A stretch of 64,000 bases of DNA, taken from contig OX344749.2 of the NCBI GenBank assembly GCA_947034885.2, positions 21,405,501 to 21,469,500 of the forward strand, in the 5' to 3' direction. Shown piece by piece: positions 41,962-64,000 of this stretch. Position 1 is the stretch's first letter. The number at the start of each line of letters is the position of its first letter. Under the pieces are notes generated by a model. The model searched no databases and was not told where the DNA came from. It saw only the letters and a program-made list of their open reading frames with translations. The DNA is from Thuidium tamariscinum. Lineage: Eukaryota; Streptophyta; Bryopsida; Hypnales; Thuidiaceae. The translations under genes and the position numbers were made by a program.

Positions 41962-42470
41962 ACAGGGATGACGGGACGTCCGGACGTCCACGAGACGTAG
42001 ACGCTAACCCATGGACGTCCATTGACATTTGAAATTCTGTTTCCGTACGTCCAGCGGACGGACGACCAGACACTTCCGCGGACGGCATTTCGGACGGACA
42101 GAGTGCGGTCACGCGGACGGGTTGCGGACGCACGGACGGCCCCGATCGCGCGGACGGGTTGCAGCTGGCTTGCGGACGCGCTGTCGGGTTGCAGGCGGAC
42201 TGCGGACAGGCGGATGGTGCGGAGAGCGTCCGCACTCTGTCCACTTGTCCGCAGGCTGTCCGCACTGTATCCGCCCGTCCGCAGTCCGTCGACACAGCGT
42301 CCGCAATCCGTCCGCAGTCCGTCAGCCCGTCCGCAGTCCGTCCACACTCCGTCCGTAGTCCATCCACACCACCGAATCCGACTAGCGATCAATCCTGGCC
42401 GCACGATCTTCCGTAAGTCCGTCCGCGCTGAATGCTGTCCGATTTTGATGGAGACGTCGCCCGCCGTCCG
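41962..42470 (+). promoter_or_regulatory. CGGAC/GTCCG array 1, upstream of the Gly/Tyr-rich protein gene
   Basis: A GC-rich block of irregular 7- to 12-bp repeats in AT-rich DNA. CGGACGG-type words dominate up to about 42220 and GTCCGCA / GTCCGTCC words after that, so the block is roughly symmetrical. It ends just before the TATAAG box at 42475. The long open frames on both strands here come from the repeats and are not genes. Related blocks lie upstream of three other genes and at the right edge. Confidence 0.8.
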
Positions 42471-42474
42471 CGAA

Positions 42475-42480
42475 TATAAG
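42475..42480 (+). promoter_or_regulatory. TATA box (TATAAG) of the 42694 gene
   Basis: TATAAG lies at the end of array 1, 214 bp before the start codon. The three sister genes have the same hexamer in the same setting. Confidence 0.65.
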
Positions 42481-42693
42481 TAGCATCGCGGACGGCTCAT
42501 TGAGGCACAATCGTCCACCTTCCGAAGTGGGTAATCCAGTGCCTCGAGCTCTGTGAGCCCCTTTCAACTTGGTGAGATGGTTGTGATTAAAACTTGAATA
42601 CTTTCATAGTATTGAGTTTTAATTATTATTTGCTTTTGCGGGCCCCGAAATTCCCATCACCCTAATTTTGAACTTTGGGGTAATTTTATTACC

Positions 42694-43770
42694 ATGCCTC
42701 GCAACGATAAACCAAAATCCAGTTCCAAGGGCAAATCCCAAAACATGAATTGGGAGGATTGGGCAAACCCTTTGTGTGTAGCAAAACCTGGATGGAAGGA
42801 GGAGCCGAAGAAATCTTGGGATTGCACAACATGCAAGAAGTACGTCAAAATGACGCACCTCTCAAAAATGTGGTCAAGAGAACGTGCTGAACAGCAAGTT
42901 CGTCGTTGGGAGGGACAAATTTCGACGTGCCTAAGCAAGCACTTTGTCCACCGGTATGAGGAAGTCACATGGTCAGCTGAAATACGTGATTCCAAACCAA
43001 ATGTGATGAACTACTCCAACATGGCCATGGTCTGGGCTGAGATTGTGCTCCACAAATATGTGGATTGGCGCACAATTTACGGTAAAAATGTCCACGAACT
43101 GCATCGTACTGATGCTGTTATTTGTACGAGTTGGACTGGTATAAGTGATTGTATGCCAGAGTGGTCTAACCGAGGCCAACTTGGATATGCACCGGTTGTA
43201 TTGCCGGATGCTGAGGATGATTGGTCGGAGGAGGAGGAGGAGGAGAAGGATGCTTCAACGCCTGTGTCATTTGGAGAGATACCTGGGCGTAGACAAGAAC
43301 GCGAAGACATCCAATACCAACAAGAAATGCGAGATGCAATGCAACGAAGTCTCGAGGATCGTGGTCGACCACATGGGCATCATAGATCGTATCAACATGA
43401 CCATGGTGTTTATGGGACACAAAATCGCCAAACTGATCCACACTATAGTAATGACCCTTGAGGTGGCTATGGCAACTACCAAGGCAGCCAAGGAACCACA
43501 CATGATTATGGTTCCAACCAAGGTAGTTCTCAGTACTATCCTGGATTCTCTGGAAGTAGTTCTTATAATGATACACGGCACAGGGGATCTCAGCGTGATG
43601 ATTCAATTCCTCCTCCAACTTTTGGAGGACCTTACTATGGAAATTATGGGCATGGAGGTGCATCAAGTGGATCTGGAGACATGTGGGGTGGTGGACCATT
43701 TCTCGGGACTTTTGGATCTGGTTCAACTGGCTCAACTCGCAAAGATGACACCGATTCGGAATCTGAGTGA
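42694..43770 (+). pseudogene. CKKYVKM-domain protein with Gly/Tyr/Ser-rich tail
   Basis: Unrecognised family. From MPRNDKPKSSSKGKS the first 30 residues are basic. Residues of about 18-135 form a domain shared with the RING protein at 53685: WKEEP..SWDCTTCKKYVKM, H..K.W.RE, KHFVHRYEEV, NYSNMAMVWAEIVL..YVDW. The paired cysteines and HFVH suggest metal binding. An acidic run (SEEEEEEKD) and a Gln/Arg-rich stretch follow. A TGA at 43459-43461 interrupts, and the same frame then continues for about 100 codons of GGYGNYQGSQG-type sequence rich in Gly, Tyr and Ser, to a stop at 43768-43770. Arginine (CGA) at the TGA would give a natural RGG context. Either the gene has decayed by one mutation or two products exist. 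The nuclear or RNA-related role suggested by the tail is a guess. Confidence 0.65.
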
Positions 43771-44046
43771 GGGAAAAAAATTTGGAAGATTGTAGCGAAA
43801 CAATGCTTGCTTTAAAATAGAAATATAGTAATTAGCAATCGATTTTTGTATATTCTTGCCATAGGATATAGATTGGCATAAGGACGATATGAGGATGTTC
43901 GCCATTTTTTGAATACAAATTTTGAGTACACCTATTTGTAAATTCCGATCCAATTATGTCCCATTTTCTTTGTGAAGCTTCTATGCTGCCTCCTTATTTA
44001 CAAAGCTGTGAGTTTGTGTGTTCATTATGTTTGCCCCAAAAACAAA
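43771..44046. other. 3' flank of the 42694 gene
   Basis: AT-rich non-coding sequence, presumably 3' untranslated region, ending at the R-family repeat. Confidence 0.4.
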
Positions 44047-44720
44047 TTAACCCCTAAGTTACCAAGGCATTTTCTGGCTGTGAAACCATTGAAAACTGCC
44101 ATTTCTGCTGCAATCACTCAAGAAACCTAAAAACACTTTTTTTCTTAGAATCTAACCGTACGATCTTGTACTTCACTTCTCTAACAACATGTGGTAAAAA
44201 TTTCATGAAGTTTGACTGTACGGATTGGAAGATATGAGCATTCAAAGTTGGAAAACAAAGTTTTTTTCAACTACGTCCTGCAATTTCAGGTGACTTTCAT
44301 GGCCATTTCTGGATTTGTTTTGCACTACACACCATGAGGTCAAAATTTTTTATCTTGAACATTTGAGTTGAGAGTTGGGGATAAAAATTTTACAATGCCT
44401 GAACTTGATTTTCACATAAAAAAAAATTGTTAAGTAGAAGTAGGTCCAAAGTTGAACAAAATACTGAATTCTTAATAGCCCTTATATTGAATTAAAAAAT
44501 CATAATCCCAACGGTGGGATTGTTCTTGAAAACAAACTTAAGCTTTTAAAAAAAAAATTGGTAAAAATTTAAAATTGCATTCAAAAATGAATTCTACAAG
44601 TTGTTTTCTGAAGAAGATGCGTAGATTGCCCAAAAAACAAGACTGTCCATAACTTTTTCATTTTTAGTCCAAATAGGATGAATCAAAGCTTCAAATGTAC
44701 ACAAAAACTAAATTGGTGAT
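44047..44720 (-). repeat. Repeat family R, truncated copy
   Basis: Starts TTAACCCCTAAGTTACCAAG and matches the reverse complement of the right end of 46616-47403 (TCTAACCGTACGATCTTGTA, TTTCATGAAGTTTGACTGTA, GGAAGATATGAGCATTCAAA). It also shares GAATCAAAGCTTCA with 57576-58484. The other end is not found. Confidence 0.75.
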
Positions 44721-46615
44721 AGGTCTTGCATCAAATTGAAACACATTAATTCCAATGGTGAAACCGTTTTGAAAAAACTAAACTAAACCTTATGCAATTA
44801 TCTATTCAACTATTAAAATGGATGTAATGCATCTCCTTCTCAAAATTTTACTGTGATTGCTTGAAAAACAAGAAAATTCATAGCCGTCACAGCGTCTTAT
44901 CCAATGAAAATAAATTAAGTTTCTCTACGTAGAAAAAAATGTTATTTTAAAAAAAAAAGGAATTTTAAAAATCATTCATGTTTTTCTTTCTATTGCCTAC
45001 ATTGGGCCTTAGGGGGAATAAATTTTCTCTCAAAATACAATTGAAACAAAATTATATTACCAAAAAGGCAAAAACCCAATCAATTTTTCCATACAGAAAA
45101 AAGGCCCAAAATTTGTTGCCACAAACTTAGTTGAAGTGTACTTCTTCAATACTTCAATACCCCAAACCTTCAAAAGTCCTTGAATATATAGGACTCCTCA
45201 GACTCATGGAATTAGTACTTTAGTAGATCTTCACATTTAAAAAAAAAAAAAATAATGAACAAGTTCAAAAGGCCGATGCATTTTGAACCCCTATAACCCC
45301 AACGGGTTAGGACAAAACACAAATGTGTTATAAAATATAAACATTACGATTGTTTTGAAGTTAGTATCAAAGAAGAATGAGAAGATAATGTAAAGCACAA
45401 AAAATAGACACTATCCATCCAGTCGAAGTAAAAAAAAATTCAGATTATTTTTAAATGAATGTTGAATATAAATTTTCAATAACTCACCAAAAATTCAATT
45501 TCTATTTTTATGGTTTGAAATTCTTTTTGATTGGTCTAAATTCTGTTTTTTATTGACTTATAAAGAAATGCAAAATATTCAACCTCTAATAGCACAAGGT
45601 ATTAAGACAAAATACGAATGTGTCATGAAATATAAGATTTACAACATTTTTGAAGTTAGCATCAAAGAAGACAATGTACAACACAAAAAGTAGAAAGTAC
45701 CCATATGATCAAAATCAAAAAATATTTATAGATTCTCTTCAAATGAATTTTCAAGATAGAACTTCAAAAACTCACCAAAAATACAATTCCTATTTTTAGA
45801 GTTTGAAATTCTTTTTCATTGGTCAAAATTATGTTTTTCATTGATTTATAAAGAAATGCTAGAAATTCAACCTCTACAAGCCCAACGTATTAAGACAAAA
45901 TACAAATGCGTTATGAAATATAAGATTTACAACATTTTTGAAGTTAGCATCAAAGAAGACAATGTAAAGCACAAAAGTAGAAAGTACCCATATGGTCAAA
46001 ATTAAAAAATATTCATACATTCTCTTTAAATGATTTTTGAAGATATAACTTCAAAAATTCACCAAAAATACAATTTCCATTCTTAGGGTTTGAAATTTTT
46101 TTACTTTGGTCAAAACTGTGGTTCTTATTGCTTTGTTGAAAAATAAATAGTGTTTATCAATGAGAGCCTTAGTACTTCTTCCAAATAGTACGTTCCTCAA
46201 CACTAAGCAATTTTAGACACTTTGTACTATTTCTCCTTTTTTTGGCTATACCTTTTGTTTGATCGTACTGATCTTAGTTTTCAATATCAATGTTCAAATG
46301 AAACCTAATTTTTTCAAAACCGGGAAGAAAAAAGGTCAAAAAAGTTTTTTTTGGGTTTAGTAAATTTTCCCAAAGTAAAGAAGAACTTTCGGAAAATGAT
46401 CGTTTCAGCAATTAGGGGTTAATGTAGAAGATAGTTCCAAAGTTTTAAAACCTGTCCTCTTCAATGTATTGAAGAAATAAATAAATAAATATTTTTTTTC
46501 CAATGTATTTCACAATTTCGAAGGAATTTCAAAGAAGAAACCTTATGAACATTATGAACATTCAATCTATTATCAATCCATTTGTTTCAAAAAAAAAAAA
46601 AAATCTATAATCAAT
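44721..46615. other. AT-rich spacer containing a tandem array
   Basis: No gene. The main structure is the three-unit repeat at 45300-46140. The right part has A-runs up to 46605. Confidence 0.45.
45300..46140 (+). repeat. Three tandem units of about 290 bp
   Basis: Units at about 45300-45594, 45595-45882 and 45883-46140 share TTAAGACAAAATAC, GAAGTTAGCATCAAAGAAGA, AGTAGAAAGTACCCATATG, ACTCACCAAAAATACAATT and TTTGAAATTCTTTTT. Units 2 and 3 are closer to each other than to unit 1. Confidence 0.85.
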
Positions 46616-47403
46616 TTAACCCCTAAAGGACCATTGTCCCCTCGGGGGACAATTTGGAGTTCGGGCAGGGTCCGTAGACCTCAATTTTTAATGAATCTTT
46701 TTGAAACTTTCTCATAAGATAGGAAAACTGATTAGCTTCATGGGAATGTAAATTTGATTTCAATTGGTGACCGGGAGAAAAAGTTATACCACAAAAAGGC
46801 CAAATTTTCATTTGGTGGGCCGAACTTTACAATTTTTTGAAAAAATAACTTATAGGATTCATTTTTTAATGCAGTTTTCAGAATTTTTCAAAACAAATTG
46901 TTGGACAAGGTTATGTTTACTTTCTAAAACAATCTCACCATTGGGATTATTGTATTTCGATCCCATCTTAGAGTTATTAACCATTTAGTTTTTCTTTCAA
47001 TCTTGGACCTACATCTACTTAACAATTTTTTAAAGAATGAAAATCAAGTGTTTTTTGTGTGAAATTTTTTGCCTAGACTCTCAACTCAATTTCTTAACAC
47101 AAGAAATTATAAATTCAAAGTCTATAGTGCAATTTTTTAATACAAATTCCAGTCAAAGTCATCTGAAATTGCAAACCACAGTTCAAGAAAACTTGTATTT
47201 CCAACCTTGAATGCTCATATCTTCCAATCTGTACGGTCAAACTTCATGAAATTTTTACCACTTCATCTCAACCAAGTTAAGTACAAGATCCTACGGTTAG
47301 ATTCTTAAATTTTGTTTTGTTTTGTTTTCTTGGATGAATGCAACAGAATTAGCAATTTTGAGAGTTTTTTGACAGAAAAAGGCCTTGGTCCTTTAGGGGT
47401 TAA
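46616..47403 (+). mobile_element. Repeat family R, full copy (788 bp, non-coding DNA element)
   Basis: TTAACCCCTAAAGGACCA at the left is matched inverted by TGGTCCTTTAGGGGTTAA at the right. The interior has no coding capacity and includes CAATTGGTGACC and GAATGCTCATATCTTCCAAT. The copy at 57576-58484 has the same order in reverse. The terminal inverted repeat and non-coding interior fit a non-autonomous DNA transposon. I cannot assign its superfamily because no target duplication is clear. Confidence 0.72.
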
Positions 47404-47956
47404 GAAGGATTTCCCAATTATTAATGTTCAATTTTTTTCTTAAATGTAATTGATATAGCAATAGAGTTATCGATATGGCTGTAACCATGGGTCATGCTTC
47501 AAAATTTTTAACTAGAAGTGACACATGTAACCCTAAGATCTTCTAGTGCACAAATTGGGGTCTTGGGGAAGATGTACACAAAATTTTAGAAAAATTAGTA
47601 AGTCCCATAAGGCCATAACGTTCATCTTACAAATCAAAATGGAATTATTCAAAACTTTCCAAGTAGATCAAAATCTAAAGAACCAATACTTCAAGGCTTC
47701 AAGGGTCAACTCATCATGACAGGTTCAAAAACACCAAATCTCGTAGAAATACTTCAAGGTGTGAACTCATCATGAGGGGTTCCAAAAGACCAAAACATGC
47801 AAAAACAAATGTGAGATAGAAGTGAATTGCACATATATTTGGGAAAATTTGTGATGCACACATCTTTTTATGACATAGTTGAGGTACATAGGGATATATT
47901 TCCTTGCCGGTACATCTATTCAATACTTCAATACTTCTACGTATAACACTAAAATA
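47404..47956. other. Spacer, 3' flank of the kinase-like gene
   Basis: AT-rich and non-coding. GGTCAACTCATCATGACAGG and GGTGTGAACTCATCATGAGG (about 47703 and 47759) form a short direct repeat. The 3' untranslated region of the minus-strand gene probably lies here. Confidence 0.4.
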
Positions 47957-49453
47957 CTAATATGAATGGCGGAAATGTTCATCTGGGATAGGCCAATTGT
48001 AACCTGGGCCAGTAAATCGTTGGACGATTTTAGTCAAACTTACTGCCCTCTCTACATCTGTAGAACACAGAAGTTCCAAATAATTATGAAACACAAGTCC
48101 TAACTGATGGTGGCTCCACTTTGTATGTCCTCTGTTATCACGATGAAGCGTTGTGTACTCCTTGGACATGCATTGCCTGTTGATCTGTTGAGCTAGTTTA
48201 CCAACCGCAAACTCCTCTGATTTACGTGATAAATGTGGAATCGTTTCCACATCTGCATCTTTTCTATGCACATACACAATAGACGGATCTACCCACCATC
48301 TTCTTTGTAAAGCTTCTTTCTTCTTACTTTCAGATGTGAAAGTGTACAAGGATTTGGGTGGATTACTATATATGGTAGTCATGCCCCAATCGCAAACCCC
48401 AATATATACACGTGACTCATCATCCGGAAAGTGAAACATGATGTTGTCCGGCGAGAGATCGTTGTGTAGATGCCCAACTTGATGCACCGCATGCAAAATG
48501 TGCACCAATGCCCATGCGAGCTCCGTACGTTTCTTTCTCCATCGACCTAGAAAGAATGCTCGATTCACCTCTTCAGGTGATGGCTTGGAATAAGCCAATC
48601 GAATGTGAATGTCATCTGGATAGTCCCTATCCATATTCAACATTTGCCTCAACGTTCCGCCATTCCACCAATACATGTACCCTTCATTATTTGTTGCATG
48701 TACAGCTGCAAATCGTATAACTCCGTCATGTGGAATCCGCACTGCCATTGACTCGTTCTGGTATTCCAACTTTGCGAGTTGAGGCCTCATACGTTGTTGA
48801 TGCGATACCTTCGCTGCAAACTCCTAAGATGCTTGTATCTCAGCACATCCTTCAATTCGCACCCTCTGGATTGTTGCATAGCCCCCCTTCAACACTGTAC
48901 TGTCTTGTGGAATCACCCTTGCGGTAATGGGCAATGCCATGAGATGCCGCCGCCCACGTTGCAATTCTACAGCTCCTTCATCCGTGTTCCACCAACCCAA
49001 TGATCCTTGTCCCTTCCGTTTCCTTGCATTCTTTGTAAACGGAGCACATCGTTTTACAAACAAATCCGCCTTCAAAATGACTTCTTCAAATGTAGGATCA
49101 TTCTCACGATGTTCCCTCCCGTACTTTGCCAAAACCACTTTGGCATTCCACAATGAATCTTGCACCCTGTTCTTTAGAAACTGTTGAAAGCCCCTTTTCT
49201 CCGTTTCATGAATCCATCCTGGAACGTGGAGAGCATCTGTCATTCTCTTCGTCATATCCGATTTGAACTTCTCAATGCACTCCTCTTCATATCGGATGTA
49301 CTTGCTATCAAGGGATGCAGTGCTCTCCTCCTCATAAAACTGCACTATGATACGGATGAGATATGCCTTGCAATCATCTGAGGGCATGTCCTCAATGTCT
49401 AGCGACTCTAGCACCACAGGTCTTGCCTTTGCTACCTTCTTTCCTTTCGGCAT
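47957..49453 (-). pseudogene. Protein kinase-like protein with novel N-terminal region
   Basis: One frame of 499 codons from MPKGKKVAKARPVV, interrupted by a single TAG (48824-48826). The first 170 or so residues are unrecognised, charged and alpha-helical in character. The rest is a protein kinase-like fold: glycine loop KGGYATIQRV, the lysine motif FAAKV just after the TAG, VHATNNEGYMYWWNGGTLRQML as the hinge, catalytic loop HLHNDLSPDNIMF (H-N-D where H-R-D is usual), VCDWGMTT (D-W-G for D-F-G), and a plausible helical C-lobe with WWVDPSIVYVHRK. The lysine and both aspartates are kept, so the ancestor could have been active. CAG to TAG is a possible cause of the stop. ATG 49453 is chosen because the longer frame upstream runs into the leader. 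The promoter resembles those of the three sister genes. Confidence 0.7.
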
Positions 49454-49639
49454 CGTGATCAAATCAATGATAAGAGTTTTAAAACTCTTGATTTCAAGCA
49501 CAAAGCAAAAAAGACGTACAAAAAAAGGGCAACAACTTGGCCCCAAATCCCACTCCTAACTTCCCTTAGAAAGGAGCCAATGGAGGATTAACCACCAAGC
49601 TCTCCGCTCTCTCTTGTGAAACACAAGGGGGAAGATAGG

Positions 49640-49915
49640 AATGCGGTTGCGGATGGGCCGTCCGCCTATCTTATACCTTGCGGACGGACCGACCCGTCCG
49701 CAACCTCGTCGGGTCCGTCCGCCTCGAAGTGGCCGTCCGATCCGTCCGCCGCGCCTCGTTGGGGCCATCCGATCGTGGCCGTCCGCCTCGCCTCGCCTCG
49801 TCGGGGCCGTCCGATCGCGCTGGCCGTCCGATCGTAGCCGTCCGCCTCACCTAGTCGGGGCCGTCCGCCTCGTCGTCCTCGGGGCCGTCCGATCAGTGTG
49901 GCCGTCTGATCGGGG
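49640..49915 (-). promoter_or_regulatory. CGGAC/GTCCG array 2, upstream of the kinase-like gene
   Basis: GC-rich block of GGCCGTCCGATC, GTCCGCCTCG and TCGGGGCCGTCCG words (plus strand), so CGGAC-oriented with respect to the gene. It resembles array 4, which has CGTCCGCCTCGTCGGGG. Confidence 0.8.
49670..49675 (-). promoter_or_regulatory. TATA box (TATAAG) of the kinase-like gene
   Basis: On the minus strand AAGGTATAAGATAGG lies within the gene-proximal edge of array 2, 217 bp before the start codon. Confidence 0.65.
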
Positions 49916-51804: not shown

Positions 51805-53299
51805 AAATTTTGTATCTGCACCAAACTCCTCATTATTTTCTAGTAATCCCTTATTTAAACATTTATAATCTTCTCAAAAATAGAAGATTGGAAAAAAATC
51901 ATCATCTCATATTATTTGGAAAAATATTTTAGAATTGATGAATGTACAAATTAAAGTTCTAGACTTTGAATTTTAGATTCCGTTTGCATATTAGTATATT
52001 ACCTATACCAACATTGTCACCATTCTCTTTTTCTAAAAATAAAAACATATATATAATTATCTTTTCATACATTAATGCTCTATTGGATATTTGATCCATT
52101 AATACCAATTTTTGAAAGCAAAAATCTACAGTTCAAAATCCAATGTTTGAGCAAAGGACTTTCAATTTTTGAACAAATGGATAGTGTAATATAGATAAGA
52201 CCTAGACATCACGGTAGATGGGGTCTTTCGCTCTTGGTGGATGGAGTCAGGTAAGACAAGAGCTTGGACGGTGAAGGAAATCCGGTTAAATAGGTGAGTG
52301 GAAGGGTGCTTCAATAATTAAGGTTTTGACAAACAGACAGACATGATTGCGTCAGATAAGATTGAAGTGTATAGGGTTGGTATACATGGGGTTGGGGTAC
52401 AAATACTTTAGGAGGTTTGTTTGGATATAACTAATGTGTTTTACATCCCTTGGGGGCATGAGTGCTAGTAGTCATAGTGAAACAAATTTGCCAAAACTTT
52501 ATATGGGCAAGTAAAATTTCCTAAAAATTTCACGTATGTTCTATATTATGTATTTATATAAGACCCTTTGGGTACAATCGTACGAACAGAGGCTAAACAT
52601 GTGTACTGTAGACCTAGTGAAGTCAAACATGAATGACTACGAATTACCTTGTGTCCAACAATGGCTTTTGTCAAACATAAGTTAGAGGACATTGTGGACT
52701 AAGTAGTAAAAGTATTGGATGTTGTAAATCCTATAGTTCCACCTAATCCTTGAAATTTTATTTATTTTGCTTATTGCTCAATTTTAGAATTAGCTTGGTA
52801 AAAAACAACAAAAAAGAGTATTCATAGAATGCTTGAAGGGATTCCCTATAATGATGAAAAATTAGTTAGAATAGACCAAGAATTGCCCAATATATACATG
52901 TAAAGTTCAAATCATTCTATTTTGATTAGTGACATGAGTACATGACAATATAAAAGTAGTGCATTCGAAAGCAAATTCATAAATGTGTCGTTGTGTCTCT
53001 CTTCTAAATGATTGGATATTCACTTTAATCATTTATATAATGATGAAATTTGGCATACAAATTTCTTTTTCAATAGAATGTCATGAAATATGAAAATTGC
53101 CACTAAACAATAAACCCTAAACCCTGAACCCTACAAACCCTAAACCCTAAACCCTTGACCTTCAGAAAGTCTCAGAAATATTAAAAAATTGCACATATTA
53201 CCATTGCTTGCTTTAAATTCCTTGAATAATTTTACAAGAACTAAATTTAAATAACTTCAACATTGGATCCCTATCCTGAATTCCTCTTTGCGCACTGCT
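51805..53299. other. Spacer, no gene seen
   Basis: AT-rich, no recognisable frame. Includes the telomere-type motif at 53110-53154. Confidence 0.45.
53110..53154 (-). repeat. Short interstitial telomere-type repeat
   Basis: About five CCCTAAA-like units, some degenerate (AAACCCTAAACCCTGAACCC, then AAACCCTAAACCCTAAACCC). CCCTAAA is the common plant telomere unit. This is far too short to be a telomere. Confidence 0.7.
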
Positions 53300-53518
53300 T
53301 ACTTTGCTGGCGGACTTCGAATCCGAGGACACACGTAGAGGAGAATCCCAGACTTTAACGCGCGGACAGAGCCATCGGACGCGTGGACGGCACCTGCGGA
53401 CACGCGGACGGACTAAGTTTGGGCTCGCGGACGGGAGCTTTGGCGGCGCTTTTAAGGTCGGGAGCGGACGGCGGCGGACGGTCGGTGCCGACCCTAGTTA
53501 GGTTCGGGGTCGGACGGG
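53300..53518 (+). promoter_or_regulatory. CGGAC/GTCCG array 3, upstream of the RING gene
   Basis: GC-rich block of GCGGACACGCGGACGGAC, CGGACGCGTGGACGG and GGCGGACGGTCGG words, CGGAC-oriented with respect to the gene. It also covers the start of the long frame, so the frame's first part is leader. Confidence 0.8.
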
Positions 53519-53524
53519 TATAAG
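53519..53524 (+). promoter_or_regulatory. TATA box (TATAAG) of the RING gene
   Basis: GGGTATAAGGGCGGACGG lies at the gene-proximal end of array 3, 161 bp before the chosen start codon. Confidence 0.65.
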
Positions 53525-53684
53525 GGCGGACGGCGGACGGATTTCTTTCACTCCTTTCTCCATTATTGGGTTCAACCTTGTCGGAGGTTCTACTGTTGCT
53601 TCATTGTGCCAGTTGCTCCTACGAGGTAGAGAGTTGGGTGATCAAATTGATTGTTTATTTCACGACACTCGTGGACTCGAAGTC

Positions 53685-56600
53685 ATGGCAAGTGAGGGTG
53701 ATGAACGTGGTGGGGGAATAAATGCAGCGGGTGGTGGCAATCGAAGGCATAAGCCAAAGGGCGCCAGCCACGAATTACATTATGAGATTCTGGATGACCC
53801 AAACATCAAAGCGGAAAACGGATGGGAGGAGGAGGCAGCACCGTATTGGTCTTCGAAAATGTGCAAAAAATACGTGAAAATGTACCACATTGACAAGTTG
53901 TGGCCTAGAGAGGCCCATGAACTTCATACACGTGGTTTTGCTTGCAAATCCACCAACTGCAATAACGCTCATTTTGTGCATTGCGCTTTGGAGGTTTGGC
54001 GGGCCCTCTTTGGAAAGAAAGCAATGAGTAAAGGGTACATAAACTACAGCTTGGCTTCTATGGTGTATGCAGAATTGATATTGGAACGCAAGGTGGATTG
54101 GAGCACGTATCCGACGACAGCACAAACTCCATTTGTACAAGAAATGAATGGAAAAGACATTCCTGATTTGTACAATCCTCAAGGAGGGCCAAGTGAGGTA
54201 CCGAAGCCCAAAAGAGTATTAAAAAATACTAGAAAAATTGAAACAAAAGTCTCAGAGGTACCAAGTGATGGACCACGCTTGCAGCCTACACACACTTTGA
54301 GGACAATGGAAGATACTGAAGGTGAAGGTGTGGAAGGAGAAGTGTTTGCAACTCCTCCTACAGATTTAATATGCACACCAAATGTTACGACGGTGGCTGA
54401 ACAGGGCATTCTTGAAGATATACAGAGTGGGAAGAAAGAAGGTGGGCCTCCATTGGCTCGATGTGAAGGTAGTGAAGATACGGAAGAGGTAGCCGAGGGA
54501 GAAATTGCAGAGGTCAATGCTACAATTCATGATATTATTGACAGTAATGCTCTCGACATCTTCGAGCTTGTACATTCGAAACCATCATGTTTGAGCAAAC
54601 CGAGGGTTTCCAGCCCCGTACAGAGCGCAACAATTGAAGCAGCTATTGCCAAAAAAAATGGAGAGGCATCTCAGGGAAAAGGAAAAGAAGTAGTCATCGA
54701 TGTTGAAGTCATCGATGTTGAAGTCATCCCCAACCAATACCCGCATTTGTCCACCTTGAACACATCACAATTGGAGGCTCTTTCGAACATGCCGAATGCC
54801 GTAGAGCTGGAACGGTTGTTGGAGGCTTCAGTTATGTTTCGGTCTCACCTTCTTGACCTAAACCGGTCGGAAGAGACAAGTGAGGCTACCACAAGCAATG
54901 CAACCCAAGGTGAAGCCAATCGTCGCAGTTGGGCAAGTGTTGCTGAAATCCAAGTGACATTGGCAAATCTAGGTCGATTTGTAGCTGAAGTATCTCCGCA
55001 ACTTACAGAGGTGGCACAGGACTTTGCAAAATTGTCACCTGAATTGTTGGCAAGTGCATTGACGTTTCATAAATTCACGGAGTCCTTGTTTCCATTTTTG
55101 GACGAGCGCTTCGAGGATAAGCGCCAATTGGTGGCTTTCTTGGAAGAAAATACGAAGTTCGTGGCGTTGCAGGAAGAATTCAAGGAAACCTCAGACAAAA
55201 TGGTAGAGCAATTGAGGATTTCCAAGAATGAGGCACACTTTCAGGTTGCAACAATGAAATGGCAAACTGAGCGTATTGAAGCTTTGGAGTCAGAAGTTGG
55301 GACATTGAAGGACGTAATCAAAAAAGTTGAGTTTCCCAAAGCTAAGCAAAAAGATGGAGCTAAGCATTTCAGTGGCAATGAGAAAAACAAGATACAAGAA
55401 GTGACACCTGTAGTCGCCATTGAAAATCGCGCATCTTCATTTCAAGATGCTTCCATTCAAACAGAGTGCCATGAAGTTGATGAATTGAAGCAGAAAGTGG
55501 ATAAGCTCACCGAAGAGAACGCGTCTTTGCAGAGTGAATTGCAACGACTAGAGCATGTTGTTCGATTGGATGACTACCTTCCAAAGAGTAGCAAAGACGA
55601 TCAATGGTTGGCATGGATTCAAAAACTAGAAGACAAACCAACCATAGTTTCGCGAGCAATGAAAGGGCTTCTCAAATTGGCAGGAAAATCGGATGAGCAA
55701 CAGCAAATAGTAGAATCTTCACTGATGAGTTTGAGGAAGAGGTTTGAAACACATCCAAAGGGGACTACAGAAATCACGTGTTGGGGAGACATGGATGCGA
55801 TGTTCGAGCGGTTGAACCACACAAAGAAAGAAGAATCACCCCACATCAATTGGGCCTTGGAGGTAGAAGAAGGTTGGGTTCCGTACAACACTCTTTCCGC
55901 ACACATCAAGGACAATGAGAAGACAGTGGTGCATGCTTCTCACACTTCTCGAGGGATCTTGGAAGGTAAATGCAGCATTTGTCAAGGTCCATTTGGTCCC
56001 GAGGGAGCCCTAACTATGGGCCAATGTCGTCACACTTTCCATGTGACGTGCATAATCAAAGCCTCACTCGTTCGCTCGGTTTGTCCGGAGTGTCGTTCTC
56101 TTTTGAGTTCCAGGTTCTACGAAATGGTTGGGACCTTGGAATGTATGCCCCCTAGTTATGAATACAATCGATGGACCCTTCCACTTGATCAAGCCCCGTT
56201 TTACTTCCAAAATTATATGCATTGGGGAAAACCTCTCACGTGGGATTCATTGGAAGACAAGCATGGGTTGTATGAAGACTCAATGGTGCCGTTGGATCCC
56301 TTTGTGTGGATGACCAGAGATCGACACGTGGAATTGCGAGCAAGGGGTATTGAAGATGCCGAAGCTCGCGAATTGTTTTGCCGCGGCATGGGTGGACATT
56401 GGAGCATAGACCATCACAAGTTCTTTCGATTTCCAGAGAAGGAAGTGAAGAAAGGACCAGATGGCAATTGGGTGGATGTGGAGCATACAAAAGAGTTGCA
56501 AGAGCGATACGGGGCGTACAATCACACATTGATAGGGAGGGCCCTCTTCCTGTCAAAGTTGGAAGAAGCTGCTAAGGTTCGAGCTCTTGTAGAGTTAGAC

Positions 56601-57011
56601 GGGGATTCCAACTCCTCACAGTCAATTGTGGAGGTGGCAGGGGCTTTTGACAGGAGGATGAGCGAGGCCGTAATGTCTTTTCGAAAATTTTTAGTGGGAG
56701 GAGATGGCCCCGGCCCGCACTGGTTTTCCGTTGGAGATGTCAATGTAACACTGAACTTGATGGTATCTTCAGTAGATGATGCCTTGGAAGCATTAAAGGC
56801 ACATGAAGTGGATCTGCCTCAGAAGCGAAAGAATAAGCGGAGGGTGGAAGATGAGGATGACTTCTCTCCAGAAACAAAAAGACAATTCAGTGCGGTTGAC
56901 ATGGCAGTGGCTTCGAGAGGGTCCACTGGTGAAGGAAGCCCCGGTCCTCACACTCGCCGTACAAGTGCAAGACTTAGGGATAGAGAGGGTCCATCTCATG
57001 TTACACCGTAG
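53685..57011 (+). CDS. RING protein with CKKYVKM domain and SIM-like repeats (1108 aa)
   Basis: A single open frame with no stop. I choose the ATG at 53685 (MASEGDERGG) over 53604 because of promoter spacing and because the upstream part reads like leader. Residues 47-142 form the domain shared with the 42694 protein (WEEEAAPYWSSKMCKKYVKM, HIDKLWPRE, CKSTNCNNAHFVH, NYSLASMVYAELIL, KVDWSTY). At about 336-348 VVIDVEVIDVEVI is a repeated V-I-D-V motif like SUMO-interacting motifs. Coiled coils lie at about 460-550 and 590-632. A RING finger at about 763-812 reads CSIC...CRHTFHVTC...CPEC, typical of E3 ubiquitin ligases. The remaining 300 residues are a globular part without known domain and a basic Ser/Arg-rich tail. 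RING plus SIM-like repeats suggests a SUMO-targeted ubiquitin ligase. The family itself is unrecognised. It is the only intact member of the four-gene set. Confidence 0.8.
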   Translation: MASEGDERGGGINAAGGGNRRHKPKGASHELHYEILDDPNIKAENGWEEEAAPYWSSKMCKKYVKMYHIDKLWPREAHELHTRGFACKSTNCNNAHFVHCALEVWRALFGKKAMSKGYINYSLASMVYAELILERKVDWSTYPTTAQTPFVQEMNGKDIPDLYNPQGGPSEVPKPKRVLKNTRKIETKVSEVPSDGPRLQPTHTLRTMEDTEGEGVEGEVFATPPTDLICTPNVTTVAEQGILEDIQSGKKEGGPPLARCEGSEDTEEVAEGEIAEVNATIHDIIDSNALDIFELVHSKPSCLSKPRVSSPVQSATIEAAIAKKNGEASQGKGKEVVIDVEVIDVEVIPNQYPHLSTLNTSQLEALSNMPNAVELERLLEASVMFRSHLLDLNRSEETSEATTSNATQGEANRRSWASVAEIQVTLANLGRFVAEVSPQLTEVAQDFAKLSPELLASALTFHKFTESLFPFLDERFEDKRQLVAFLEENTKFVALQEEFKETSDKMVEQLRISKNEAHFQVATMKWQTERIEALESEVGTLKDVIKKVEFPKAKQKDGAKHFSGNEKNKIQEVTPVVAIENRASSFQDASIQTECHEVDELKQKVDKLTEENASLQSELQRLEHVVRLDDYLPKSSKDDQWLAWIQKLEDKPTIVSRAMKGLLKLAGKSDEQQQIVESSLMSLRKRFETHPKGTTEITCWGDMDAMFERLNHTKKEESPHINWALEVEEGWVPYNTLSAHIKDNEKTVVHASHTSRGILEGKCSICQGPFGPEGALTMGQCRHTFHVTCIIKASLVRSVCPECRSLLSSRFYEMVGTLECMPPSYEYNRWTLPLDQAPFYFQNYMHWGKPLTWDSLEDKHGLYEDSMVPLDPFVWMTRDRHVELRARGIEDAEARELFCRGMGGHWSIDHHKFFRFPEKEVKKGPDGNWVDVEHTKELQERYGAYNHTLIGRALFLSKLEEAAKVRALVELDGDSNSSQSIVEVAGAFDRRMSEAVMSFRKFLVGGDGPGPHWFSVGDVNVTLNLMVSSVDDALEALKAHEVDLPQKRKNKRRVEDEDDFSPETKRQFSAVDMAVASRGSTGEGSPGPHTRRTSARLRDREGPSHVTP

Positions 57012-57575
57012 GGTATTCGTGAAAAGATATAGTAGAAGTGGATCTTTTATTAGCTGTTAGATATTATATTACGGAGGATTTGTTTTAACTTTGAATCTTT
57101 CGGAGATTCATTGCAAATCATTCATAGTAGCTATAGTATGGTTTTTATTTTTTTTATCAATACGAAAATATATGTGAAATACAGAGTTGCAAATGTGTAT
57201 ACATTTCAAGAATTTTATTTTAGTTGAAGTCTGACATGCACCATCATATGATCAATTGATCATATATGAAGATGTTTTTGTTTGATGATGCAAAAGGCTA
57301 ATTTTAATTCCAGAAGAGAATGGGATATGTGAATCAAGGTTTTCTTCTATGCAGGGAAAAAAATAAAATTATTGTGTTCACTGCAAAACTTTATAAATTC
57401 ATTTTTGATCATTCCATATTTTTTTCCAAATCTTTTTGAAATTACCATGATCTTGAAGAGTTTAAAGAAACCAAGTTCAATTTAATCTACAAGAAAGTCA
57501 TTTGTGATTTGTTGTCTCTAAAACAAAGTTTTAGATGTTTGAAGTCCAGTTGTAATAACAATTTCAGTATAATTG
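57012..57575. other. 3' flank of the RING gene
   Basis: AT-rich and non-coding, presumably including the 3' untranslated region. Ends at an R-family repeat. Confidence 0.4.
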
Positions 57576-58484
57576 TAAGCCCTGAAAGACCAAACTCGGT
57601 TTTTTGGAACATAGCAATATCGAGCAGCTCATTATGAATGGGTTTTTTTTAGGGTTTGTCTTTCAGATTTTCACACAAGATGTGTCCAATGTGGTGGAAA
57701 TTTCATGAAGTTTGACCGTATAGATAGGAAGATATGAGCATTCAAAGTTGGAAAACAATGTTTTTTTAAACTTGAGTTTGCAACTTCAAATGACTTTGTC
57801 CTCCATTTCTGTAATTTTTTTGCACTACAGTCTACAGACTTTGAATTTAAACTTTTTTCTATTGAGAAATTGGGGTAACAGCTTAGGAAAAGAAATTTAG
57901 AAAATAAAGTTTTTTTTTTCATTCTTTAGAAAATTGTGAAGTAGATGTAGGTTCAAGATTGAAAGAGAAAGTGAATTGCAAATATCTCATACATTGAATT
58001 GAAACATTATAATCCCAATGGTGAAATTGTTTTAGCAAGCAAAACCAACCTTGTCCAACAACTTTTTATTGAAAATTGTGGAAATTGCATTCACAAATTA
58101 ATCCTAAATTTTTTTTTTCCAAAAACATGTTTACATTGTCCAAAAAACAAGATTGTTCATGACTTTCACATCACTAATCCAAATGGAATGAATCAAAGCT
58201 TCACTTGTAGACAAAAATAAAATCAATAAAAAATTAAAAAAAATTTAATTCTGAAGTTTTTTATGATTTTTTTTCTTCCCGGCGACATGAAAATGATATT
58301 AAAGATGGCATAACTTTGGCTCATGGTCACCAATTGGAAAAGAATAATATTCCTACAAAGCTAATGAAGTTTTTTATCTGAGTTATGTGAAAATTTCAAG
58401 CAAATTCATTCAAAATTGAAGTGACAAGTACCTGCCCAAATTCTTGAAGTCCCCCAAGTGGACTCTTGGTCCTTTGGGGGTTAA
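57576..58484 (-). mobile_element. Repeat family R, second full-length copy
   Basis: Starts near TTGTAAGCCCTGAAAGACCA and ends CTTGGTCCTTTGGGGGTTAA. Read in reverse it follows 46616-47403: CAATTGGTGACCATG near the CCCAAAGGACC end, and TATCTTCCTATC-type sequence with AAACTTCATGAAATTTCCAC at the other. Non-coding. Confidence 0.72.
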
Positions 58485-58784
58485 AGTATTGAAACCGGTA
58501 ATTTTCACTTGCGAAAATGAATTGTTCACATTTCATTATTTTGAAGCACTTCATACTTCTTTCTATTTATTATTTTTTTCCTATTATTTGTACAATTCCA
58601 AATGATTTGAAGTTCTTCAATCACATAAGTAACTTCCATTGCGAAATAAATGTAAAGAGTAACCAACATTTTCAACATTTTTTCATACAAATGTGACATC
58701 GTGAAGTGGAGGTATTTGAATTTGTCAGTGTAAAAAAAAGGATATATGTCCATTGAAATGGTAGAAATTACTAATTTGGAATTG
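58485..58784. other. AT-rich spacer
   Basis: Nothing recognisable. Lies between the R repeat and array 4. Confidence 0.4.
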
Positions 58785-59080
58785 TGGATGCGTCCGCCTC
58801 GTCGGGGCTGTCCGATCTAGGCCATCTGCCAGTCGCCGTTGTCTGCGCAATTCTTCCGCTACGGAAGGCCGTCCGATTGGGGGCCGTTCGCCTCGTGGTG
58901 GCTGTCCGCCAGACCCGTCCGCCTCTTGCTGGCGTCCGACTGGGGGTCCGTTCGCGACCGTTGGCCGTCTGCCTCTCGCCGTCCGCTGCTCGCCGTCCGC
59001 CGATCGGAGTACCCTGTCGGGCCGTTCGCAGTTCGGTCCGCTGTTTCGTCCGCACTATCAATCGGGATTGTCTCCCGTCC
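58785..59080 (+). promoter_or_regulatory. CGGAC/GTCCG array 4, upstream of the hAT transposase gene
   Basis: GC-rich block of CGTCCGCCTCGTCGGGG, GGCCGTCCGATTGGGG and CCGTCCGCTGCTCGCCGTCCG words, GTCCG-oriented with respect to the gene, the opposite of arrays 2 and 3. Confidence 0.8.
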
Positions 59081-59119
59081 GTTGCAACGGTCACGAAGAG
59101 CAACCTTAGAACTGAGGAG

Positions 59120-59125
59120 TATAAG
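59120..59125 (+). promoter_or_regulatory. TATA box (TATAAG) of the hAT transposase gene
   Basis: GAGTATAAGTCTCC lies just after array 4, 258 bp before the start codon. Confidence 0.6.
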
Positions 59126-59382
59126 TCTCCAGAAATTGTCATTTGCAAGCACTCCTGTAAAGCTGAACGCTAAGATTTCCAAGGGCTAGGCGCTGCAATT
59201 TCGGTTGTGTCCCTTGCTTGGTAATGCATAGTTCAGTGGTCAGGGGGGCTTTGGTTTCCAAGGCTTCATTCTAACTGTATCGGTTACTTTATTGACGATT
59301 TTTATTCCTGCGGAGATCTTCACCCTTTTTGTGGTTACACTTGGAATTTGAAGTTCCAAAGAAGCACTAAAAATTCATCATT

Positions 59383-62300
59383 ATGAGCAAGGATTGGTCT
59401 TCTTGGTATGGCGCCCCTTCAGTTGGGAAAGTACAATGCAAAGCCTGCAACCTAGTGTTTGCCAAAAAAACATGCCGTATGTTTAGCCATCTTGGTTATG
59501 AAGGTGCATCAGGGTCTCGTGATCGAGGAATCAGTCTATGTCCACGACTCACATCCCAAGTTCAGAAGCTATTTCGTCAGTGCAAGGGGGTAATCCCACG
59601 AAGAGGTGAAAACGAGAATTTGGGTGGAAACGGGACAGTGGAGGCCACGGTTGTAAATGATGCAGCAAATGAGAGACCCTTGACACCGTCAATATGTCTT
59701 ACACTGGAAGATTCTTGTACAATACCAAAAGAAATTGTCCACGTGTCTTCTGGAGCACTTGCAAGTACTCAAGCATCTGATGAAGGAGACACAGCGATAG
59801 GATCAACTAGTAGGCCTTTGGTGCAGAGGTGGATAGGAGATGGCTTTGAAGAAGCGAATAGACGGAAATTGCATGCAGTGTGGGCTAATTTTTTTTATGC
59901 TGTGAACATACCATTTTCGGTGGCACGGAATGCAGCATTTAAAGAAGCGGTGAAGAAAATGGCTGAGTTTCACAAACCCTAGACCCCACCATCGTACCAT
60001 GAATTACGACATAAGTTGTTTGATCAAGCGAAGGCAGACATTAAAGTGAATATCAACAAGCAAACAGAAGACAGCATCAGGAAGTTTGGAGCAACATTGT
60101 CTATTGATGGGTGGACTTCGGCAGCAAATCGCCCATTGGTAAATGCAATGCTCATGTCTTTTGCGGGCGAGCAATTCCTAGGATCGGAGGATACAACAGG
60201 AAAAGAGAAGAATGCCGCCTATTTGGCCTCCATTTTGGAAAAATTCATAAAAGAAGTAGGTCCTTCCAAAATAGTACAAATAAGCGCAGATAATGCGCCT
60301 GTGAATGAAGTCGCATACAAGTTGATATCTCCAAAGTACCCTCATATATTTTTCCAGGGTTGCGTGGTCCATGCCCTGAATTTATTACTGAAAGATTGGG
60401 GCAACGAACGGTGGATTGAGGAGGTCGTGGGCAATGCCCATAACGTAGTGAAATTCTTCAAAAAGAGGCACATGCCTCTTGCAATATTTTGAAGGTACTC
60501 GCCGGACTGCATGTTGTTGATGGCGGTGGAAACTCGGTTTGCTTCGAATTACAACATGGTGGACCGTATGTTGAAGGGGAAGGGGAAGTTACAGCAAACG
60601 GTGACAGACCCACAGTGGGAACAATACGTGAAAACATTAGGGCGGAATACTAATGCTCGCAGTGTGTGCCGAAGGGTGAAGGACATCATTTTGAACGAGC
60701 ATTTTTGGCGGCGTTGTCAAAATTTCAAGGATTTATCGGCTCCAGTGGTACATGGTCTACGCGATTTGGATGCAAAAAGGCCATGTATGGGGAAGGTGCT
60801 ACATATCATGAAGAAAATACAGAAGCACGTTTTGTCGTTGGATGAAGCACCTTTTAGTTTGTCCTTGGATTTAGCCATCCAACTACAAGAAGCCTTTCAC
60901 GAACGGCGAGCGATGGTAGAGACAGATCTACATTATGCAGGGGCTTTGTTGAATCCCTATCTTCTTCACGACAAAGAGCTTGCTGATGATCAAGATGCAA
61001 TGGATGCATGCAAGCGTGTTTTAATGATGAGAAGAAGTATGTATCACAGAAGAGTATGCCGCTGTTGTGAAGGAATTTGTAGCCTTTTGACATAGGGACC
61101 CCCCTTTCCACAATATGTTGAACCCCGACGAACAACAATTGTCGGCGGATGCTTGGTGGGATTTTGAGGGCGCGTGCGGGAAGTTCATTGCTCCAATTGC
61201 CAAGCGTATTTTGGCCCAACCGGTATCTTCCTCTTCATGTGAACGAAATTGGAGTAGCTATTCATTTGTTCACAACAAATCTCGAAACAAGTTGACGCCA
61301 CAGAGAGCACAAGATTTGGTGTATGTGTACATCAATACTAAAGTCCTTTCCGCATCTCAAGAAAATGATGAGAAGAAGTGGTACGAAGAGCAATTCGAGA
61401 ATGTGGATATGGAAGAGTCCATGTCAGAGGATGAAGGTGGTGAAGATCATGGTGATGGTGAAGAGAGAGATCCCCTATTTGATGATGAATATGATGCGGA
61501 ATACAATGTGACTAATTTGGTTGATGAACCATCCCAAGACCCTCATCATAATGATGAAGACTTTGAAGACAATCCATTGGATGTCTTCAATTTTGAAGTG
61601 GACGAGGAGAATTACGACTATGATGAGGGTGTCCCATCAAAAGCTAAATTTATGGATGGAACTACAGTATTGAGTAGTGAGAATGTTCGAGCACATAGCC
61701 GGGACACTAATGTGGCAATGGAAGAGAGAAATGGGGCAACGATGAACATCGGTGGGACTTCGACCCCGGATGAATTGATTCCAATTTCTAAATGTCCATC
61801 GCCAGTAGGGGTCGAAGCAGAAGAACTTGGCAAACAGAACGACTTGGGAGACAGTGGAGTGAAGGTGGACAAAAATGTAGGTGATACAAGTGTTGCATTC
61901 GTTGAAGTATTGGCGTGTAAGAAAAGCTGTCTTGCGAGTACCGAGAAAGGTAAAGCAAGGGGAGTAGCAACACATGTAGATGTAGGTATGATGGAGTCTG
62001 GGAGCCCCATGTCATTTGAGAATGGCAAAGGCAAGAAGCCCCTCGCACGAGATCCAACTAAACCCCCACGTAGCGGTCCTCCACGCATACTGTTCAAAAG
62101 CGGCAATGCAAGTTTAGGTGGTCTCGGTAGTTTACGCTACCGAGATAAGGATCCAGAAGAAGATGAAACGTTGGAGTCCATGTTTGGTCCACGTTCGCTG
62201 AAGTCATCAAATCGATCACTTTCTTTGGGCGCAAATGAGATCATCATTCCAAGCGGATCAAAAGCAAGACAACCAGCAATGAAAGAGTCCAAGAAAGCTA

Positions 62301-62655
62301 AAATAAAAGAATACCGGAGGCCTTTGCAAGATCACCATCGAAGCGGCAAAGTCTAGGTCGAACCCCCCTTGATGTATGTGAACCTTTTTCACAAAGCAAA
62401 GTGAAACCGGTTAATGGTCTCGAAAAAGGGATTGGGAAGTCTACATTAGGAGTTAGAGACATGGTGAAAGAGCAAAAGAAGGGTAGACGCAAGAGATCGC
62501 TTGCATCAAAGCAAATATCCGGAAGAAAAGAGCGAGTTCTACAGTCTTCATCCGATAGTATGGAAAGCACAAGTGATGAAGAAGACTCAGAATGGGATTC
62601 AAGAGGTCATAGTAGTGGAGCTGAGGTGAGAGGAGACGTTGATTACAAGCCTTAG
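59383..62655 (+). pseudogene. hAT transposase with BED-like finger, DUF659 and dimerisation domain, interrupted
   Basis: About 1,090 codons from MSKDWSSWYGAPSVGK. A BED-like finger comes first (VQCKACNLVF...SHLGYEG...GISLC), then a linker, then the DUF659 region of the hAT core (RWIGDGFEEANRRKL, SIDGWTSAANRPLVNAM, IVQISADNAPVNEVAYKLI, GCVVHALNLLLKDWG, VETRFASNYNMV). The dimerisation domain follows (DAWWDFEG, IAKRILAQPVSSSSCERNWS, HNKSRNKLTPQRAQDLVYVY). A long acidic tail ends in a basic Ser-rich stretch. This tail is unusual for hAT transposases, which are commonly 600-800 residues. Interruptions: TAG at 59980-59982, TGA at 60490-60492 and 61088-61090, a frameshift near 61030-61045 and another near 62290-62310. 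Arginine fits at least one TGA. The gene is therefore inactive in this copy. No hAT terminal repeats with an 8-bp duplication were found around it. Confidence 0.85.
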
Positions 62656-63689
62656 AAATTAAAGGAATGTAGACTTAGGTGTTTAGATATTCATGGTACA
62701 TGGTAATATGGAGCTTATAAGTTGTAATGGAAATGGTTTGTTTGAACCTTTGAAAGTAATATAAGTTTTCATGCGCATGTTGGAAACGTCACTATGATTT
62801 ATTGATTTTTGATTTTTTGGTTTCATGGTATTCAAAAATAATGAACAAAAATTAAATTGTGACAATGTTTGGTTCGTGGATATGGTCACATGGACGAAAC
62901 ATGATAAGGTAGGTGGCTCGAATTGCGACAGTCTATTTAGAAGCATCCCTATAAAAAGCTCAAAAATTTGTTTCAAAAATAAATAAATCCATAAAATTTT
63001 ACGACAATAATTAGGCTTCAAGGAAAACATAACCCAACACATTTTTTTGAAAACTAACATTTGATGAAAAAGATACAGGCCCCTGAAGTTGAAGCCATCT
63101 CAATGTAGTTTGGTGAATTCAAATTGAATTTGTGAACTTTGATTGACTCCCAAGAAATCAGTATAAGTGTATAACTGAGATTGTTCTAAAAATTTTATCA
63201 CACAAACTAGAAGAGAGTGTGCAAATTTTCCAACAAGTTTTGTTGAATTTGGAAATCGGATACAAAAGTTATAGCACTTTCAATTGGACTTAAAAGTATA
63301 TGAAGACAATGTTGGTTTTAGGGCTTAATTTTAGTAAAGGTCACATTTAGGAACCTAAAGTATTACTTTTTCAGCGCTTCATTGCTTGTTTTTGGTCAAG
63401 CTATGGTTTTTTCCAGACTGCGCATGTGTGGGTTTTGCAACTTGCAAGACCTAGAATCACAAATACATACCTATGCTAGAATTCTTTGAAAACATAAGTA
63501 ATTTATAAATGCTTGGAAAAATATGAAACCATTTGGTTTAGATTTCGCATCAATGGTTCTTTAAACGAAAAATAAGGGGAAATATTTTTGGGCATCTTCA
63601 ACCCATCAAAAAAACCAAAGAGCCCTTAAAGGGTCGCTTTTCAAGCCATCTACTTTACATGTTATTTGAAAACCCTAAATCCAGAAATG
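62656..63689. other. 3' flank of the hAT gene, AT-rich
   Basis: No gene supported. A minus-strand frame at 62683-63060 reads as random AT-rich sequence. Confidence 0.4.
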
Positions 63690-64000
63690 CAATCGACCGC
63701 CCGCTCATCCGTCCTCCCGTCCGCAGTCCTGTCCGCCCGTCCACAGGTCGACCGCCCGTCTGGCCGTCTGCAGTCCCGTCTGGCCGTCCGCAGTCCTGTC
63801 CGCCCGTCCACAGGTCGACCGCCCGTCTGGCCGTCTGCAGTCCCGTCTGGCCGTCCGCAGTCCCGTCCGCCCATCCGCAGTTCGGTCCGCCCGTCCGTAG
63901 GCCGACCGCTCGTCTGGCCGTCCGCAGTTCCGTCCGTTGCTCCGTCCGCCGGTCGCCGAGGACAGCGTCCACTACGTCCACTAAGTCCGGACATCTGGAT
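63690..64000. promoter_or_regulatory. CGGAC/GTCCG array 5, at the window edge
   Basis: GC-rich block with longer internal repeats: GTCCGCCCGTCCACAGGTCG followed by ACCGCCCGTCTGGCCGTC occurs twice (about 63736 and 63796, 60-66 bp apart). No TATAAG box or gene is visible before the window ends, so its partner gene, if any, lies to the right. Confidence 0.7.

Follow-up and report, generated by a model that had tools for sequence, protein, structure and literature searches.

A 22-kb hAT transposon carrying four genes and a recurrent CGGAC/GTCCG array in the moss Thuidium tamariscinum

Analysis of a 64,000-nucleotide stretch of the Thuidium tamariscinum genome (contig OX344749.2, positions 21,405,501 to 21,469,500; hereafter, the window) revealed a giant hAT transposon of 22,082 bp at 41963-64044, which carries a CKKYVKM-domain protein gene (A), a protein-kinase-like gene (K), a RING finger gene (R), and a transposase gene (T). 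An initial annotation had described these as a co-regulated mobile set of genes under one promoter type, spanning 41962-64000. The mobility was upheld and the extent is corrected here, whereas a promoter type linking separate genes was not retained, since all four lie in one hAT with its own ends and target site duplications (TSDs); four independent mobile genes with a common promoter are ruled out on the same grounds. We favor, with a probability of roughly 80%, the reading that this is a single four-gene element in which the array would act both as an end signal and as a shared promoter word, and in which K, A, and R would serve the element.

The element edges were obtained from genome matches. 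Many matches to 41500-44100 start at 41963 (query position 464) or a few bases off, and some begin further inside the element; on the right, many stop at 64044 (query position 1545) and others stop earlier. The left terminal inverted repeat (TIR) is CAGGGATGACG (41963-41973, plus strand), as is also supported by other copies, and the right TIR, CAGGGTTGACG, ends at 64044 on the other strand. The 8-bp TSD TCTACATA is found at 41955-41962 and, as an exact match, at 64045-64052, beyond the window (in locus L001). These TIRs and the TSD on both sides indicate an hAT-type insertion of the full 22,082 bp, the plus-strand part inside the window being 41963-64000. Short, CAGGG-type TIRs, as in hAT elements, occur both in the family of the window copy (family 1) and in a second one (family 2), and the TSD has the 8-bp length of hAT elements. 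Among 15 further family-1 copies, chosen from those with both ends mapped, the TSD was exact in 11, had one mismatch in three, and was lacking in one; the script used for this purpose needed CAGGG, and two loci (L050 and L054) were judged by eye from their flanks. One copy, on C2, is 22,518 bp long with the TSD AGGTCCAC at both sides and retains four open frames of 359 (A), 495 (K), 1,105 (R), and 1,089 (T) codons.

Gene T (59383-62356, plus strand) was identified by its open reading frames and Pfam domains as the hAT transposase. In the window, stops and a frame change split it into four pieces. The open C2 protein matched Dimer_Tnp_hAT with 38.4 bits (cut-off 21.4) and DUF659 with 121.3 bits (cut-off 34.7), and the family-2 transposase gave 31.9 and 121 bits, respectively. 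The DGWT, CVVH, ADN, and SSCER motifs are visible in the open-copy transposase; they may contain the hAT DDE catalytic residues of the RNase H fold. None of the scanned element proteins matched a tyrosine recombinase (DUF3435) in Pfam. Gene R (53685-57011, plus strand) is open in the window with 1,108 codons and combines a CKKYVKM domain with a RING-H2 finger; its matches to zf-RING_2 (30.4 bits, cut-off 27.3) and zf-RING_11 (32 bits, cut-off 27) mark it as a RING-H2 finger protein and a putative E3 ligase. Weak coiled-coil-type matches were also obtained for this protein.

Gene K (47957-49453, minus strand), delimited by its open reading frame, Pfam matches, and motifs, has an in-frame stop near 48824 that separates the pieces 48824-49453 and 47957-48823. 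Its Pkinase scores, 29.3 bits for the window C-terminal piece and 25.8 bits for the open copy minus its first codon, fall below the Pfam cut-off of 31.7. The motifs KGGYATI, AAK, HND(L/I)S.DN, and CDWG, which presumably are nucleotide-binding and catalytic, are conserved between the two families, and a PDB sequence search with the C-terminal piece returned 68 weak matches from several kinase families (best E 0.0006). On the sub-threshold Pfam matches together with these motifs, we describe K as kinase-like.

Gene A (42694-43461, plus strand), delimited by its open reading frame and domain comparison, is stopped at 43459 after 255 codons, versus 359 in the open C2 copy, whose protein has a Gly/Tyr/Ser-rich tail. 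No family match for A was found above the cut-off. The zf-C3HC/NuBaID assignment was rejected, the window score being 19.6 bits versus a cut-off of 22.2, and neither the C2 copy nor family-2 copy X (see below) matched zf-C3HC at E 0.01. The PDB sequence search with A gave a single match at E 0.47, and the NCBIfam scan gave nothing above its cut-off. A and R have a Cys/His-containing domain in common (CKKYVKM, HFVH), 39% identical over about 130 residues; with this common domain, the initial description of four unrelated genes is not right. Structure prediction for the CKKYVKM domain, starting from two sequences of the window, gave a model with a mean pLDDT of 36, which was unusable. The accompanying statement that all but one of the genes are decayed agrees with our reading of A (early stop), K (in-frame stop), T (four pieces), and R (open).

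The CGGAC/GTCCG words of the window are concentrated in five arrays. The left subterminal array (41978-42493, 30 words) is also the gene A promoter array; further arrays precede K (49660-49891, 14 words), R (53311-53538, 12 words), and T (58792-59081, 12 words). The right subterminal array (63719-63992, 13 words) has no element gene behind it and was missing from the initial annotation, which had correctly listed the four promoter arrays. Together, the five arrays (1,540 bp) hold 81 of the 131 words in the window, at a density of 52.6 per kb compared to 0.80 per kb elsewhere; outside the element, the window shows two weak clusters, of five words at 20250-20349 and three at 29702-29736. Word scans placed a TATAAG hexamer at 42475-42480 for A (plus strand), 49675-49670 for K (minus strand), 53519-53524 for R, and 59120-59125 for T. 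Measured at its first base, the hexamer lies 219 (A), 222 (K), 166 (R), and 263 (T) bp from the ATG; the distances of 214, 217, 161, and 258 bp given initially point to about the same places, counted from the end of the hexamer. The proposed promoter plan is thus confirmed: all four genes are preceded by an array and by a TATAAG hexamer whose distance to the ATG is 166-263 bp.

The same layout was found in other copies. In the C2 copy, an array and a TATAAG precede each gene, the hexamer lying at 220, 222, 165, and 263 bp. For gene R, TATAAG is positioned 158-169 bp from the ATG in all 30 fetched copies, and 10-22 array words occur within 600 bp in 29 of the 30, with two words in the remaining one (L007). 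A shuffle test was applied to 14 arrays, taken from other copies and elements and not from the window's own five arrays (11 from two giant copies, two from short elements, and one from an end of a 3.8-kb element); every one of the 14 contained more words than any of 300 dinucleotide shuffles of its sequence. CGGACG ranked first or second among the listed hexamers in 12 of these arrays; it tied for second in the T array of the C2 copy and was outside the six commonest hexamers in the T array of copy X. A pattern search for TATAAG with CGGACGTC within five bases gave no match (control, 3 + 4). Telomere-like AAACCCTA words occur at 53112-53142, just upstream of the R array, and the same words are present upstream of the R array in the C2 copy.

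Several other features were seen in the window. Diverged inverted repeats, 72-82% complementary, occupy 44147-47305 (between A and K) and 57691-58130 (between R and T) and may derive from an old nested element or a foldback. Frames with DUF4218 and Transpos_assoc domains at 3260-6165 (minus strand) are probably a decayed CACTA-type element. An open gene of 497 codons at 30585-32078 (minus strand) encodes DUF247, a plant family according to Pfam, and a 572-codon open frame at 15346-17061 encodes a NIF-type phosphatase domain (E 2.3e-12). No cluster of three or more array words lies near the start of the DUF247 gene, and no array-word cluster lies near the start of the phosphatase frame.

To assess recurrence, we searched the genome, which comprises 19 contigs with a total of 363 Mb, about 362.9 Mb of it in the 11 largest. 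The protein searches yielded at least 42 R, 149 A, 136 K, and 150 T matches, numbers that are lower bounds because only the best candidates were scored. By identity, about 80 copies can be assigned to family 1, and another 54-70 form a more distant group; all 42 scored R matches belong to family 1. In family 1, K follows A on the opposite strand at 3-9 kb in 73 of 80 cases (median, 5,272 bp), compared to a mean of 0.043 and a maximum of two A-to-K pairs in 1,000 runs of random placement. A occurs with K and T in order in 70 of 80 cases, as the initial idea of a recurring gene set had anticipated, and R with A, K, and T in order in 37 of 42. In the distant group, K was in order on the same strand at 2-12 kb from A in 37 of 69 cases, a lower figure that counts against the favored reading and to which decay, best-candidate scoring, and mixed families may contribute.

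Median mutual identity among the 30 R loci is 99.4% within a set of 13 copies and 97.3% within the remaining 17, which suggests one recent burst and one older. Family-1 transposase matches lie in stop-to-stop frames of at least 1,081 codons in 25 of 80 cases, as counted by eye. The existence of nearly identical copies whose frames are open suggests that the element was active recently. Kinase matches of 62-66% identity with several stops were also seen at C11:12187923, C11:3373522, C11:2628005, and C11:1025202, with transposase matches 11-15 kb away; these sites probably represent a third, decayed family.

Family 2 is exemplified by copy X (C1:21379247-21404757; loci L034, L035, and L003), the right end of which lies 0.7 kb to the left of the window. 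Copy X carries K, A, R, and T, and arrays lie at its two ends and ahead of every gene; compared with family 1, K and A differ in order and orientation, and R is split by an inserted stretch. TATAAG lies at 302 (A), 187 (K), and 234 (T) bp, so the spacing in copy X is looser than in family 1, and an exact TATAAG ahead of R was looked for in copy X and was absent; we count both observations against the favored reading. The family-2 TIR patterns CAGGGYTGTRCGGACKYC and CAGGGTTGTRCGGACTCTACG (at most one mismatch) were found at 83 and 115 places, respectively, short elements included, and their reversed-pattern controls at none. Of 10 further long family-2 copies, seven have an exact TSD and two have one mismatch; the copy without a matching TSD exchanges duplications with an inverted neighbor.

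Between the two families, protein identity is 62% for A, 58% for K, 53% for both parts of T, and 47% and 42% for the N and C parts of R, respectively. The dN/dS ratios are 0.21 (A), 0.19 (K), 0.35 (R, C part), and 0.28 (T, C part), with the N parts of R and T saturated; these ratios are rough because dS is 1.2-1.8 or saturated. Within family 1, comparison of the C2 copy with the window pieces gave 0.18-0.36. At the between-family distance, the ratios show constraint at the protein level on A, on K, and on the greater part of both R and T. On the other side of the balance, a McDonald-Kreitman-like count for R in two family-1 subgroups (13 + 14 loci, leaving out L007, L025, and L030 of the 30) gave 18 synonymous to 41 nonsynonymous fixed differences and 136 to 251 private ones (P = 0.56), that is, no excess constraint on R between these subgroups, which counts against the favored reading.

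Copy X and a family-2 copy lying inverted on the right of the window, Y, carry each other's TSDs, GCTGACTC exactly and the other with one mismatch, and the entire window is inside the X/Y inverted segment C1:21404758-21485413. Such swaps were found in five of six chosen inverted pairs of giant copies, including C11:11.97/12.12 Mb and C7:26.81/26.91 Mb (both TSDs exact), C3:10.12/10.20 Mb (exact for the one of two that was checked), and C7:28.33/28.36 Mb (one exact, the other with one mismatch). The pair at C2:8.0 Mb showed no swap, and one of its copies has matching flanks. The swaps reflect either segments flipped by recombination between inverted copies or assembly orientation errors, the latter being possible because 22-kb repeats are hard to span; the inverted copies would thereby indicate sites at which the chromosome, or its assembly, is flipped. 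Two family-1 copies, at C6:19.855 Mb (L048/L049) and C6:19.71 Mb (L116/L117), have non-matching TSDs, with neither a mutual swap nor another partner found.

The array is not specific to the four promoters: it also occurs at both ends of the giant element, in gene-free short elements, and at the ends of a 3.8-kb hAT-like element. Seven short gene-free elements with family-2 TIRs, 744-1,164 bp in length, carry 19-33 words per fetched locus, and all seven lack TATAAG; their 8-bp TSD is exact in six and has one mismatch in the seventh (L074, by eye). A 586-bp element with family-1 TIRs and the TSD CTTACTTT contains 25 words and likewise has no TATAAG. The larger element of about 3.84 kb (C1:1003091-1006927; L105 and L106) has CAGGGTTGTCATA CAGGG-type TIRs, array words at its ends, and the TSD ATATAGGC, read by eye; judged from its ends, it is a further hAT-like family. 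The words thus accompany hAT ends in all of these and are not restricted to promoters. We therefore read the array as a transposition signal first, and the dense arrays kept by gene-free elements without TATAAG point in the same direction: most likely, the array is primarily a predicted transposase-binding end repeat, comparable to AAACGG in Ac, which is also placed at each promoter. A subterminal site of the transposase, repeated at the promoters of the giant element, would be the simplest reading.

The possibility that the array is an ordinary promoter element of the plant's genes, merely used by these four, might draw on the thousands of genome-wide pattern matches (2,724 + 2,614 overlapping matches, versus 79 + 88 for the reversed control). 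However, CAGGG-type sequence adjoins the array in four of the five C1 array sites that we read at no listed giant copy, two of these four are element ends by their matching 8-bp duplications, and, outside the element, the window contains just the two weak clusters of five and three words. A housekeeping promoter motif is thus unlikely, and we regard the ordinary-promoter possibility as highly improbable. No element end was seen at the fifth site (L104, 601 bp), and five sites read out of thousands of matches is a sample that we count against the favored reading.

Under the favored reading, each of T, K, R, and A would have its own TATA-type promoter inside one hAT. T would bind the CGGACG word, probably through an N-terminal zinc finger, and this binding would bring the array-filled ends together for cut-and-paste movement. 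CGGACG at each promoter would also allow joint adjustment of the four genes, either by T or by the A/R domain. The initial proposals of co-regulation and of array binding by one of the set's own products fit such a scheme. Less firmly, K, A, and R may work for the element, because they are kept with it across both families; their role would most likely be countering host silencing or controlling transposase activity or stability. An extended form of this scheme, to which we lend somewhat less than even credence, would make CGGACG both the transposition signal and the operator of every gene, with an element-encoded DNA-binding protein sensing copy number and setting the expression of the four genes, and with the kinase, RING, and CKKYVKM proteins forming a module against host control. 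If this is true, gene-free satellites would also titrate the regulator.

Two alternatives concern the accessory genes. DNA transposons often capture pieces of host genes, and host kinase-like, RING, and CKKYVKM genes could have been captured by an hAT as passengers, the arrays having reached their promoters by chance duplication. Such capture would suit the R gene, given its lack of extra constraint between family-1 subgroups, but it sits poorly with the presence of all four genes in both families at dN/dS of 0.19-0.35 where estimable, with ratios for K and A below that of the transposase, and with the same array at every gene, which would not be expected from random capture; we consider it improbable. 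Somewhat more plausible, yet still doubtful, is that A or R, through the CKKYVKM domain, and not the transposase, binds the words and keeps the element unmethylated, an anti-silencing role like that described for VANC proteins at VANDAL elements. The Cys/His-containing domain common to A and R would be consistent with this role, as would the arrays at both ends and all four genes in two whole-read copies besides the window's. Against it, the unusable model of the domain offers no help, and the array kept by gene-free short elements fits a transposase site at least equally well.

hAT elements are usually described as transposons with one gene. An hAT whose transposase has stayed together with three further proteins (kinase-like, RING, and one other) in two divergent families, every gene lying behind the same repeated word, would offer a compact natural example, in a plant, of a cut-and-paste transposon equipped with its own regulatory circuit. 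It makes testable what accessory genes do in DNA transposons. In the titles and abstract beginnings covered by a literature search, no multi-gene hAT in a plant was found, which is weak evidence of absence. VANC proteins keep Arabidopsis VANDAL elements unmethylated, and the two systems are alike in combining short-word arrays and an accessory protein in one DNA transposon; however, VANDAL elements belong to the Mutator-like superfamily, have longer TSDs, and are not known to carry a kinase or RING gene. Teratorn, the piggyBac-herpesvirus fusion of medaka, is likewise a giant DNA transposon with many further genes, but it is a 180-kb piggyBac element with viral genes, in contrast to the hAT transposase and four genes here.

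Fungal Starships are also large multi-gene transposons, and their defining feature is a DUF3435 tyrosine recombinase (PMC12506042), whereas the element described here has an hAT transposase and its cargo is a recurring four-gene set. ToxhAT/ToxTA of fungal wheat pathogens is a class II element of 14 kb that was formerly classified among hAT elements carrying genes. It has a 2-bp TA duplication and 74-bp TIRs, and its authors reclassify it away from hAT (PMC12506042); in contrast, our element has an 8-bp TSD and an hAT transposase. A further likeness is to maize Ac/Ds. Ac is a 4.6-kb element with a TIR of C/TAGGGATGAAA, an 8-bp TSD, and one transcript; its 807-residue transposase recognizes AAACGG repeats that lie within the terminal 200 bp (PMC3260210). 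The element described here resembles Ac/Ds in the 8-bp TSD, the 11-bp TIR (starting C/TAGGGATGA in Ac and CAGGGATGACG here), the short subterminal repeat words, the short non-autonomous relatives (PMC3260210), and the hAT dimerization domain found by Pfam. It differs from Ac/Ds in its 22-kb length, its four genes, its 1,089-residue transposase, and the occurrence of the repeated word also at internal promoters.
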